From positions 1-64,000 of the forward strand of contig JAMXLJ010000172.1 of NCBI GenBank assembly GCA_024281095.1: a DNA stretch of 64,000 nucleotides. Direction: 5' to 3'. How positions within the stretch are numbered: position 1 is the first letter of the stretch; each line of letters opens with the position of its first letter. A program made the translations under genes and the position numbers. Below the pieces are notes generated by a model, which had not been told where the DNA came from, did not search any database, and saw nothing but the letters and a program-made list of their open reading frames with translations. This DNA comes from Acidimicrobiia bacterium (GTDB taxonomy: Bacteria; Actinomycetota; Acidimicrobiia; IMCC26256; JAMXLJ01). Shown piece after piece: positions 21,507 to 26,806 of this stretch.

Positions 21507-22046
21507 TCAGAGGAGCCCGGGGAGCCCGTCGATGCTCTCGGCGTTCTTCTCCGCGTGGTACGCGGCCACGCCGGCCGGGCCCTTCCGGTCCGCCCACTCG
21601 ACGAGGGTCGGGCGCTCGCCGCGATAGTCCATCAACGGCACTGCGTAACCGCACGACGTCGAGATCCGCTCGACCGCCACGCGGATCACCGAGCGCGAGC
21701 CCGGATACGCCGGCACCTCCTCGAGGACCGCCGCGGCGCGTGGATCGTCGAGCGCGAGGACATCGCCGTGTCCGTGCACGCGCACGATCCGTGGCGGGCC
21801 CTCGAACGCGCAGAACATCACGACGACGCGGCCGTTCTCGCGCAGGTGCGACACCGTCTCGATGCCGCTGCCGGTGAGGTCGAGCCACGCGACGGTGTGA
21901 TCATCGATCACGCGGAAGGTGTCGAGACCCTTGGGCGAGACGTTGACATGACCGTCGGCGCCCGACGGTGCGGTGCCGACGAAGAACACGTGTTGCCGCG
22001 CGATGAACGACGCGAGCTCGCCGGTGATCAGGTCATGGGTGCGCGC
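21507..22046 (-). CDS. Pyridoxamine 5'-phosphate oxidase family protein
   Basis: HVNVSPKGLDTFRVIDDHTVAWLDLTGSGIET and NGRVVVMFCAFEGPPRIVRVHGHG. Confidence 0.88.
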   Translation of the reverse strand, partial: ARTHDLITGELASFIARQHVFFVGTAPSGADGHVNVSPKGLDTFRVIDDHTVAWLDLTGSGIETVSHLRENGRVVVMFCAFEGPPRIVRVHGHGDVLALDDPRAAAVLEEVPAYPGSRSVIRVAVERISTSCGYAVPLMDYRGERPTLVEWADRKGPAGVAAYHAEKNAESIDGLPGLL

Positions 22047-22100
22047 CATCGGGCAAGCGTATGAGACGGTCCCGGGCAACCGGGCTCGAATATCGAGCGC

Positions 22101-23831
22101 TCAGGTGGCCGAGGCACATGCGGGGTCGGACGAGTGCTCCGCGGCCGCGCGCGCGTGATAGCTCGAACGGACGAGCGGGCCCGCTTCCACGTGAGCGAAC
22201 CCGAGCCCCATGGCATACGACCGGAGCTGCGCGAACTCGTCGGGTGACCACCAGCGCACAACGGGGAGATGCCGCGGCGACGGTCGGAGGTACTGACCGA
22301 GCGTGAGGATGTCGACGCCGACGCCGCGCAGGTCGCCGATCGCGGCGCGCACCTCTTCCTCGCTCTCCCCCATTCCGAGGATGATCCCCGACTTCGCCGT
22401 GAGCCCGGCATCCTTCGCCCGCGCGAGCACGGACAGCGATCGGGCGTACGCCGCCGACGGGCGCGCCGCACGCTGCAGGCGCGCCACTGTCTCGAGGTTG
22501 TGATTCAACACGTCGGGGCGAGCATCGAAGATCGTGGCCAGCGCGCCGGCATCGCCCCTGCAGTCCGGGATCAGGACCTCCACGCGGGCGGTGGGAACGC
22601 GGGTCCGAATCGCCCGGATCGTCGCCGCGAACGCGGCTGCCCCGCCATCGGCAACGTCGTCACGCGCGACGCTCGTCACGACGACGTGCGCGAGGCCCAG
22701 CGTCGCTACCGCGTCGGCGACGCGCGCCGGCTCGTCGGGGTCAAGCGGCAGTGGGCGGCGCGTGTCGACGAGGCAGAACCCGCACGCCCGGGTACAGCGG
22801 TCGCCCAGGATCATGAATGTCGCGGTGCGGTCGGCCCAGCACTCGTAGATGTTCGGGCAGCCGGCCTCTTCGCACACGGTGTGCAGTGAGAGCGAGCGCA
22901 TCAGGCGCTTCGTCTCGCGATAGCCGGGGCCCAAGTCGGCGCGGACCCTCATCCACGGCGGCCGCCGGAACGTCGGATCCTCTTCCGGCGCGGCAACGCC
23001 GGCTTGGGCCAGGCGGCCCAGGAGACGCACCGGGGCGGCGGCCGGTGCTGCCCCACGCGCGTCACCCGCAGTTGGGACGCTGTTCCGGTCATGGGACACG
23101 AAATCGTCCCAACTCGGGGGTGAGGATGCTCGGGATTCTCGGGTGAAGGGGGAGAGGTCTTCCGGGCGGTCGCGCCACACGATGTCCTGGCGGCTGACTT
23201 CGGCGTAGCCGAATGCTTTCGTGAACTCGTCGATGACAAGGTCGACAACGTGCTTCGTGTCGGGCGCGGCGCCCAGTTGCTCGCGCAGTGAGGTGACGGG
23301 GCGGTCCGGGATTCCGCATGGGACGATGTGGCCGAACATGGCGAGATCGGGGTCGACGTTCAGCGCGAAGCCGTGGCGGGTTCGACCGCGTGCCACCTTC
23401 ACGCCGATCGCCGCCACCTTCGCGCCCTCGACCCACACGCCCGTGTAGCCGGCCTCGGTACCGGCCGCGATACCGAGGCGCGCGAGCGCCGCGACGAGCA
23501 CCGCTTCGAGGCGACGCACATAGGCCACCACGTCGGTCTGGTGCTCGCGCCATCCCGGCAGCGTGACGATCGGGTAGCCGACGAGCTGGCCGGGCCCGTG
23601 GTAGGTGACGTCGCCGCCCCGGTCGGCCCGGACGAGCTGCGCGCCGACCGACTCGGGAGGGACGAGCACGTGTTCCATATCGGCGCGGGAGCCGAGCGTG
23701 TACACGTGGGGGTGCTCGAGCAGGAGCAGGTAATCGTCGTCGCTGCGCTCGTGGAGCGCGCGCTGCAGGACGTCGGCGTCGGCGTACGCAACGCGGCCGA
23801 GCCAACGGGCCTGCAGCACTTCCGGACTCAC
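22101..23831 (-). CDS. lipB/lipA: LipB-LipA fusion: octanoyl-[carrier]:protein transferase (N) plus lipoyl synthase (C)
   Basis: Single uninterrupted ORF. LipB part: RGGDVTYHGPGQLVGYPI, GAKVAAIGVKVARGRTRHGFALNV, FGHIVPCGI. LipA part: CEEAGCPNIYEC, ILGDRCTRACGFC, SGIILGMGE, RSSYHA. GTG start overlaps E2 stop by 4 nt. Confidence 0.93.
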   Translation of the reverse strand: MSPEVLQARWLGRVAYADADVLQRALHERSDDDYLLLLEHPHVYTLGSRADMEHVLVPPESVGAQLVRADRGGDVTYHGPGQLVGYPIVTLPGWREHQTDVVAYVRRLEAVLVAALARLGIAAGTEAGYTGVWVEGAKVAAIGVKVARGRTRHGFALNVDPDLAMFGHIVPCGIPDRPVTSLREQLGAAPDTKHVVDLVIDEFTKAFGYAEVSRQDIVWRDRPEDLSPFTRESRASSPPSWDDFVSHDRNSVPTAGDARGAAPAAAPVRLLGRLAQAGVAAPEEDPTFRRPPWMRVRADLGPGYRETKRLMRSLSLHTVCEEAGCPNIYECWADRTATFMILGDRCTRACGFCLVDTRRPLPLDPDEPARVADAVATLGLAHVVVTSVARDDVADGGAAAFAATIRAIRTRVPTARVEVLIPDCRGDAGALATIFDARPDVLNHNLETVARLQRAARPSAAYARSLSVLARAKDAGLTAKSGIILGMGESEEEVRAAIGDLRGVGVDILTLGQYLRPSPRHLPVVRWWSPDEFAQLRSYAMGLGFAHVEAGPLVRSSYHARAAAEHSSDPACASAT

Positions 23832-25282
23832 GTGAGCTCCGCCTCCCAGTCGCGTGACTCGAGGATCTCCTTCATCCGGCGCAGGAACGCCGCGGCGTAC
23901 GCGCCGTCGAAGGCCCGGTGGTCCCACGCGAGCGCGAGCACGCCGATCGGCCGGATGGCGATCGCATCCTCACCGTCAGGGCCCTCCACCACGACGGGCC
24001 GCTTGTGCACGCCGTCCGTGGACAGGATCCCCACCTGGGGTTGATTGATGATCGGCAGCGTGATGAACGTGCCGTACCCACCCGCGTTGGTGATCGTGAA
24101 CGTGCCGCCGAGCACCTCGTCGGGCGACAACTGCTTGCTGCGCGCGCGCTCGGCGAGGTCGCGCATCTCGCGTGCGAGCAGCCGGAGGCGCTTGCCGTCG
24201 GCGTTGCGGACCACCGGCGCGATCAACCCGGCGAACGACAGATCGACTGCGACGCCGAGATGGACGTCGTGGTGCACGATCAGGCGGTCGGCGTCGACGC
24301 TCGCGTTCACGTTCGGGAACTCGACGACCGCGTCGCAGAACGCGCGAGCGATGAACGGAAGGTACGTCAGCGAGAACCCTTCGCGCCGCTTCCATTCGTC
24401 GCGGTGCGCACGCCGCGCCCGCTCGACCCGTTCGTAGTCGACCTCGATCGAGGTGTACACGTGCGCGCTCGTGGCCTTCGAGCGCACCATGTGCTCCGCG
24501 GTGCGACGCCGAATGTTGTCGAACGGAACAACTTCGTCGCCTCGGCTGACCGGTGCTTGCTGGGGTGGGGCGGGGGCGGTGGTAGGGCCCACCGCTTGTT
24601 GCACGTCCGGCGACGCCGGTTCTGCGCGCGGGGCACTCGTGAGCGCGCTGGACGTGGAACTCGTGCCGGGGCTCGCAGCCAATACGTCGCGGCGGGTGAT
24701 TCGGCCGCCTTCGCCGGTGCCTTTGATCTGGTTGGGGTCGAGGCCTCGTTCGGTGATGAGGCGGCGGACCACGGGGGACATCACCAGGGTGTTGCCGTCC
24801 GTGTTGGGTGCCGCGGGAGTCGACGCGGCTGCGGGCGCGGCGTCGCGCGGGGCCGCGGGCGCGGGTGGCGGCCCCGATGCCGGTGCGGGCTCGGCGGGAG
24901 CAGCCGGGGGCGCCGCTGCGGAACGTTCACCGGAAGCACCCGCAGCAGCGTCGGTGCCCACCGCCGCTCCCTGCGCCGTCTCGGGCACTTCCGGAGCGGC
25001 CGCGGGGGCCTCCTCGGCGGGCGCCGCCGCGGGCGTGGATGCGCCGGCGGCGGAGTCGCTCACGACGGCGAGACGGGTGCCGACGTCGACGGTCTCGCCC
25101 TCGGGAACGAGGATCTCGGCCAGCACGCCCGCCGTCGGTGCGGGCACCTCCGAGTCGACCTTGTCCGTGGAGACCTCGAACAGCGGCTCGTCGGCTTCCA
25201 CACGATCCCCGACCTGTTTGAACCAACGGGTGATCGTTCCCTCGGTCACCGTCTCGCCGAGCTGCGGCATCGTGATGTCCAC
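23828..25282 (-). CDS. sucB: 2-oxoacid dehydrogenase E2 component (dihydrolipoamide acyltransferase, SucB-like)
   Basis: Lipoyl domain FEVSTDKVDSEVPAP, Ala/Pro-rich linker, E3-binding domain SPVVRRLITERGLDPNQIKGTGEGGRITRRDVL, DHRAFDGAYAA. Confidence 0.92.
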   Translation of the reverse strand: MDITMPQLGETVTEGTITRWFKQVGDRVEADEPLFEVSTDKVDSEVPAPTAGVLAEILVPEGETVDVGTRLAVVSDSAAGASTPAAAPAEEAPAAAPEVPETAQGAAVGTDAAAGASGERSAAAPPAAPAEPAPASGPPPAPAAPRDAAPAAASTPAAPNTDGNTLVMSPVVRRLITERGLDPNQIKGTGEGGRITRRDVLAASPGTSSTSSALTSAPRAEPASPDVQQAVGPTTAPAPPQQAPVSRGDEVVPFDNIRRRTAEHMVRSKATSAHVYTSIEVDYERVERARRAHRDEWKRREGFSLTYLPFIARAFCDAVVEFPNVNASVDADRLIVHHDVHLGVAVDLSFAGLIAPVVRNADGKRLRLLAREMRDLAERARSKQLSPDEVLGGTFTITNAGGYGTFITLPIINQPQVGILSTDGVHKRPVVVEGPDGEDAIAIRPIGVLALAWDHRAFDGAYAAAFLRRMKEILESRDWEAELT

Positions 25283-25318
25283 GCCGTCCTCCGTTCGGGG
25301 CGCAAGTGTGCGGGCGGT

Positions 25319-26707
25319 TCAGCCGTGCAGGAACCGTCCGGTGAGCGCGATGGCGGACTCGCCGAACAGCTCGCTCAGGGTCGGGTGCGGGTGCACGAGC
25401 ATCTCGAGATCCTTGGCCGTGGCTTCCCAGTTGACCGCGAGGTAGCCCTCGGCGAGCAGCTCCGTGGCCCATGGGCCGACGATGTGCACGCCCAGCAGCG
25501 GCCCGTCGCGCTCGGCCACGATCTTCACGAGCCCGTCGGGCTCGCCGATGATGAGCGCGCGGCCATTGCCCGCAAAACGGTGCACGGATGTGACGACATC
25601 GTGCCCCCGGTCGCGGGCAGCCTGCTCGGTGAGCCCGCTGAACGCGACCTCGGGGTGGCTGTAGATGCCCCACGGGACCTTGTCGTACTCGATCGGCGAC
25701 ACGGGCTCACCGAGGATCGTCTTGATCGTGACGATCGCCTCTGCGAACGCGACGTGGGCCAGTTGCGGCCCGGGCACGACGTCGCCCACTGCGTACACGC
25801 CGGGCACCGTCGTGCGCATCAACCCGTCGACCTGGATGAATCCGCGTTCGTCGACCTTGACGCCGGAACCGTCGAGCTCGATGCCGTCGGAGAGCGGCCT
25901 GCGCCCGACGCTCAGGATCACTTTGTCGACCGGAAGCTCCTTCAGCGAGTCGCCGTTGCGGTACTTGACGACGACCTCCGACCCGTTGCGATCGACACCT
26001 TCGACCGCGACACCGGTCTCGACCTTGACGCCCCGCTTCTTGAACGCGCGCACGACGACGTCCGCGGCGTCGCGGTCGACGCCGGCAAGGATCTGCGGGA
26101 GCACTTCGAGGATCGTGACGTCGCTTCCGAGATCGGCGAGCAGTGACGCGAACTCGCATCCGATGGCGCCGCCTCCGATGATGACGACGCGGCCCGGCAC
26201 GTCTCGCAGTTGCAGGACGTGGTCGGACGACAGGATCTGCTCGCCGTCGAAGTCGAGACCCGGCAACGCACGCGGCCGCGAACCGGTCGCGAGGATGAGC
26301 GCGTCGCCCTTGAGCTCCGTGCCGTCGGACACCCGGACGTGACGCGCGGCGCCGTCGACGAGCGTGCCGCGACCCGGCACGACGGTGACCTTCCGCTGCT
26401 TCAGGAGCGCCTCGAGCCCGCGCGTGAGGCGGTCGATCACCTGTTGCTTGCGCTTCTGGCTCGTGCCGAGGTCGAGCGACGGCTGCCCGGCGTCGACACC
26501 GAACTCCTTCGCTCCCGCGACCGTGCGCAGCACCTCGGCGGTCTGCAGGAGCTCCTTCGCCGGGATGCAGCCCTGGTGGAGGCATGTGCCACCGACGCGC
26601 TGCTCCTCGACCATCGCGATGCGCAGACCCGCGGAGCCGCCGTAGAGCGCGGCTGCATAGCCACCCGGGCCACCGCCCAGGATCACGACGTCGAACTGCT
26701 CGGCCAC
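25319..26707 (-). CDS. lpdA: Dihydrolipoyl dehydrogenase (E3)
   Basis: VVILGGGPGGYAAALYG, GGTCLHQGCIPAKELLQ, YAVGDVVPGPQLAHVA, VHPHPTLSE. Confidence 0.94.
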   Translation of the reverse strand: MAEQFDVVILGGGPGGYAAALYGGSAGLRIAMVEEQRVGGTCLHQGCIPAKELLQTAEVLRTVAGAKEFGVDAGQPSLDLGTSQKRKQQVIDRLTRGLEALLKQRKVTVVPGRGTLVDGAARHVRVSDGTELKGDALILATGSRPRALPGLDFDGEQILSSDHVLQLRDVPGRVVIIGGGAIGCEFASLLADLGSDVTILEVLPQILAGVDRDAADVVVRAFKKRGVKVETGVAVEGVDRNGSEVVVKYRNGDSLKELPVDKVILSVGRRPLSDGIELDGSGVKVDERGFIQVDGLMRTTVPGVYAVGDVVPGPQLAHVAFAEAIVTIKTILGEPVSPIEYDKVPWGIYSHPEVAFSGLTEQAARDRGHDVVTSVHRFAGNGRALIIGEPDGLVKIVAERDGPLLGVHIVGPWATELLAEGYLAVNWEATAKDLEMLVHPHPTLSELFGESAIALTGRFLHG

Positions 26708-26806
26708 CTCGCACCTCTTTCCCTCGCAGAGCCATTGTCCCCCGCGAACGCGTCCCACCCTCGCCGACCGAGCTTCCCTCCTCGCCCGGCGGACGGGGCG
26801 GGAGGA

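Follow-up and report, generated by a model that had tools for sequence, protein, structure and literature searches.

The gene that occupies positions 22101..23831 (minus strand) of the window, a 64,000-nucleotide stretch of contig JAMXLJ010000172.1 from an Acidimicrobiia bacterium (GCA_024281095.1), raises the question of whether the octanoyltransferase LipB and the lipoyl synthase LipA are naturally joined in one polypeptide and, if so, whether the two steps that they catalyse are coupled. The gene, lipBA, is a single frame of 576 codons plus a stop that starts with GTG, and the plus strand of the same interval is broken by stops; the original prediction had named no strand. Its product has Pfam matches to LplA-B_cat, LIAS_N and Radical_SAM. 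The LipB domain (23196..23822, minus strand, residues 4-212) scores above the NCBIfam equivalog cut-offs of NF010925 (191.8 versus 155 bits) and TIGR00214 (170.2 versus 83.55 bits), and the LipA radical-SAM domain (22131..22994, minus strand, residues 280-567) above that of TIGR00510 (350.5 versus 310.25 bits, residues 280-564), which bears out the original prediction of an uninterrupted reading frame in which both a LipB and a LipA domain are complete. Between the domains lies a linker that begins with SRQDIVW..DLSPFTR (23139..23195, minus strand, residues 213-231), continues through an in-frame copy of a dispersed palindromic repeat (23063..23124, strand not assigned) and ends with VRLLGRLAQAGV (22995..23030, minus strand, residues 268-279), a segment found ahead of the LipA domain in many fusions.

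The active-site motifs quoted in the original prediction are all present, and one assignment had to be corrected: the catalytic lysine of LipB is K138 in AKVAAIG (within 23403-23423), not K145 of GVKVARGRTRHG (context GVKVARG). K138 is the same in all 76 fusions of an alignment, whereas K145 varies. Also invariant in these fusions are C172 of LipB (within 23310-23324), the six cluster cysteines of LipA, which belong to the auxiliary-cluster motif CX4CX5C (22839-22874) and the SAM-cluster motif CX3CX2C (22773-22796), and R555-S556-S557 of the RSSY motif (22158-22169), in which Y558 is nearly invariant; these motifs lie on the minus strand. The LipB half matches the solved LipB structure 2qhs (target TM 0.90), and the LipA half matches the solved LipA structure 5exk (target TM 0.93). 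AlphaFold2 modelled the window protein with a pLDDT of 90.5 and a pTM of 0.91, and an Actinomarina member that is 44-45% identical to it with a pLDDT of 89.6 and a pTM of 0.90, the two runs having used overlapping alignments. In the window protein only residues 232-235 and 240-262, which fall in the linker, have a pLDDT below 50. A pTM of about 0.9 for a protein of two large domains means that their relative placement is consistently predicted and does not imply that the arrangement exists; the models predict that LipB and LipA are packed in a fixed manner in two distant members.

The lipBA protein was matched in 97 of 100 related genomes, mostly whole or as LipB and LipA pieces within one open frame. 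According to the domain positions in tblastn alignments, all 91 Acidimicrobiia loci with both halves measurable are fused in one stop-free frame, and none of 56 loci from other Actinomycetota is, the genes there being separate and mostly adjacent in the order lipB-lipA. Class membership was judged from named relatives: the fused set comprises Acidimicrobiales, Acidimicrobiaceae, Microthrix, Acidiferrimicrobium, Actinomarina and metagenome-assembled genomes placed with them, and the unfused set comprises other Actinomycetota such as Streptomyces, Rhodococcus, Dietzia and Nocardioides. Genes that seemed to be separate in two class members (G026, G036) are explained by contig ends, and in a third apparent exception (G053) the LipA half starts at a contig end inside LipB. 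Some class members carry further genes, namely an additional stand-alone LipB (L222, G053:C255; L224, G047:C15) or, on a short contig, a further lipB-lipA pair that is not fused (L228, G011:C83). The original prediction, which proposed a natural fusion and professed ignorance of its extent, thus holds as to the fusion, the same-genus relative of the window species being fused too, and is answered in part as to extent: the fusion is apparently universal in the class and was not seen elsewhere among the sampled Actinomycetota. That the joined frame is an artefact, with a stop or frameshift missed in the linker during sequencing or assembly, has a negligible probability: a palindrome with a stable predicted hairpin is the kind of place where assemblies can fail, but the independent genomes of relatives reject this explanation, all measured members of the class being fused, including single-contig genomes (G016, G059 and G079 among them), and the same-genus genome being fused without the repeat. 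The suspicion that the original prediction had placed on positions 23000-23150 is accordingly resolved as a dispersed palindromic repeat with no frameshift, and lipBA is a real, class-wide fusion of known enzymes.

In phylogenetic trees of 62 rows, one branch separates all fused LipA domains from the rest (SH-aLRT 93), and likewise for the fused LipB domains (SH-aLRT 89), which is consistent with a single old fusion. The simplest history is that neighbouring lipB and lipA genes fused once in the ancestor of the class and that the fusion then descended vertically. A DLxxF[ST]R segment after LipB can be recognised in 30 of the 78 fusions, and a looser DLxxF/W in the tails of 7 of 56 stand-alone LipB proteins. 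Creation of the fusion by a palindrome that bridged lipB and lipA was considered and ruled out, since the fusion occurs throughout the class and the relative of the same genus has it without this repeat.

The repeat copy in the linker, the palindrome of which spans 45 bp (23070-23114; about 62 bp including its outer arms), is translated as approximately residues 237-256, and has a predicted hairpin with a z of -3.7; a search of Rfam with positions 21900-25400 gave no match. The family to which it belongs has 61 matches in the genome of the window species, counting both strands and weak hits, and 37 distinct palindrome-like sequences were read in 39 loci of this genome; its outer arms, AGTTGGGACGAT and ATCGTCCCAACT, are conserved, its inner halves are variable and its length is nearly constant at 45 bp (loci L001-L019 and L155-L173). 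A strict pattern of the family finds 12 copies in this genome and none in 99 relatives, the same-genus genome included. When 35 copies were placed against genes predicted by a trained ORF caller, 24 were intergenic, 7 lay across gene ends and 4 were scored inside genes, of which 2 reached a gene end; most placed copies are located directly past the 3' ends of genes. The only two copies well inside genes are that of the lipBA linker and one in a CaiB-type CoA-transferase gene (G000:C62:29011-31356; positions 295-2640 of L008, with the repeat at 1502-1546), where it separates, in frame, two CaiB-family CoA-transferase domains; relatives have this protein fused as well. The linker of the same-genus lipBA has 40 residues, versus 61 in the window species over the aligned span, and is without exactly the repeat stretch. 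The repeat lengthened the linker of the window species by a later in-frame insertion, and was probably tolerated there because this part of the linker is predicted to be disordered. In another genus, g12, an unrelated palindrome (GAGCATGTGACGCTGGGCCACG...) is found in frame in the same linker of three species (L028/G045, L031/G012 and L032/G023); it is dispersed in the genomes of those three species, doubled in tandem in G045, and absent from a fourth species. Taken together, the two unrelated palindromes indicate that the joint of lipBA took in palindromic inserts in frame at least twice.

The gene order at the locus is lpd, E2, lipBA, all on the minus strand: lpd (25319..26758) encodes dihydrolipoyl dehydrogenase (E3), and the next gene (23828..25282) encodes a 2-oxoacid dehydrogenase acyltransferase (E2) with one lipoyl domain, the stop codon of which (TGA) overlaps the GTG start of lipBA. 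Of the fused loci whose flanks are complete, all 31 have lpd upstream of lipBA and 25 have E2 immediately upstream, a conserved position which suggests that the likely substrate of the fusion is made from the same transcript. The fusion is very probably one bifunctional polypeptide for de novo assembly of lipoate, with the LipB step followed by the LipA step and E2 as the most likely partner. By the known chemistry of LipB and LipA (PMC12246082), the LipB half would transfer octanoate from acyl carrier protein onto C172 with the participation of K138, and would then pass it to the lipoyl-domain lysine of its partner, most likely the E2 encoded just upstream; the LipA half would use radical-SAM chemistry to insert two sulfurs, at C6 and C8, into the octanoyl chain, at the cost of its auxiliary [4Fe-4S] cluster. 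The predicted fixed packing of the domains makes coupling of the two steps plausible, and would raise the chance of the same lipoyl domain passing between the two sites without a strict channel.

The same frame might nevertheless yield two products, with LipA made also or mainly by internal initiation or by proteolysis in the linker. The linkers are long, variable and predicted to be disordered (residues 232-262 in the window protein), and nearly all contain an in-frame GTG or ATG, some with Shine-Dalgarno-like runs; but such runs are not in excess per start codon in frame (31 of about 278) as compared with the other frames (15 of 164 and 14 of 87), which rules against a conserved internal start for LipA, and the locus carries neither a stop nor separate genes in any measured class member. 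Two products are therefore improbable. We infer that lipBA acts as one uncleaved polypeptide with both halves active and with E2 as the main substrate.

A search for separate lipA or lipB genes elsewhere in the genome, as the original prediction had recommended, found none that matched the whole-fusion query (4.39 Mb in 177 contigs, 98% complete). A Pfam search revealed one further LplA/LipB-fold protein, whose gene comes straight after gcvH and overlaps its end (L196 1061-2172, G000:C159). This acyltransferase scores weakly as LplA and resembles LipM, to which we tentatively assign it; homologues are present in 17 of the 61 genomes searched, the genome of the window species being counted. In a large survey of lipoate assembly (PMC10332631), the occurrence of LipB together with LipM is described as very rare. 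The genome may therefore hold two octanoyltransferases and one LipA, in which case the LipA half of lipBA may also have to thiolate octanoyl-GcvH in trans, and such activity would argue against a closed intramolecular route.

These genes bear on whether the halves of the one polypeptide are coupled at all. The fusion may have fixed only their stoichiometry and co-expression, each half acting on diffusing substrates, and this has an even chance of being correct: a single LipA was found together with a second octanoyltransferase-like gene beside gcvH, no sign of channelling emerged from the analysis, and the distance from the LipB cysteine to the first LipA cysteine ranges from 93 to 168 residues among fusions (149 in the window protein), but fixed packing of the domains is predicted in two distant members and the fusion has been retained throughout the class. 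The interpretation first offered for the fusion, that the octanoylated E2 domain is held in place for thiolation, is no more than consistent with the order lpd-E2-lipBA and the predicted packing, the natural fusion itself being the part that stands. It is doubtful that the class-wide fusion is a committed machine in which rigid packing of LipB and LipA lets one lipoyl domain of E2 from the same transcript be octanoylated and thiolated in one encounter, with no octanoyl-E2 released, and that its seam at the same time behaves as an old gene boundary entered in frame by palindromes of unrelated families.

On the reading of lipBA as a bifunctional polypeptide, the fusion bears on how octanoylated carriers reach lipoyl synthase, an unsettled matter. 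In every turnover, lipoyl synthase uses up its own auxiliary cluster. A natural fusion found throughout a class, with the gene of its likely E2 substrate next to it, offers a ready system for asking whether the transfer of octanoate is coupled to the insertion of sulfur. The lipBA gene is also a clean marker gene fusion at the level of a class, and its linker preserves a natural record of repeats that entered a core enzyme in frame.

The linker repeat resembles REP sequences and Rickettsia palindromic elements, which are short dispersed palindromes located mostly past gene ends and in some cases translated in frame (PMC3733652), in being short, multi-copy and mostly outside genes. It differs from REP sequences in having no unpaired GTAG/CGTC tag (as defined in PMC3733652), since both of its ends pair and CGTC is within the stem; from REP sequences of the GTAG type in that no RAYT (Y1) transposase was found in the genome, a search of which (98% complete) for PF01797 gave no match while positive controls worked; and from both kinds of element in that its family, by the strict pattern, is confined to this genome among the 100 searched. 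Searches of open-access literature did not turn up any account of LipB fused to LipA, nor is one mentioned in excerpts of the lipoate-assembly survey (PMC10332631). The nearest catalogued architecture is the NCBIfam family NF053790 (LplA_LipA_fuse, lipoate-protein ligase/lipoyl synthase), which likewise has an acyl-attaching enzyme fused ahead of lipoyl synthase, but its N-terminal part is LplA whereas that of lipBA is LipB; the window protein scores 355.9 bits against a cut-off of 800, over profile positions 327-604 (the LipA part) only, and is not a member. Sequence databases may label such proteins automatically as 'multifunctional fusion protein'. The N-terminal half of lipBA is like LipB (TIGR00214, NF010925; 1w66 of M. 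tuberculosis) in sequence, fold and Lys/Cys dyad, but runs in frame into LipA, whereas LipB stands alone elsewhere in the phylum. The C-terminal half is like LipA (TIGR00510; 5exk of M. tuberculosis) in sequence, fold, both cluster motifs and RSSY, but has LipB at its N terminus, and no stand-alone LipA was found in this genome. What is new is the in-frame palindrome in the lipBA linker; the two halves themselves are an ordinary LipB and an ordinary LipA.
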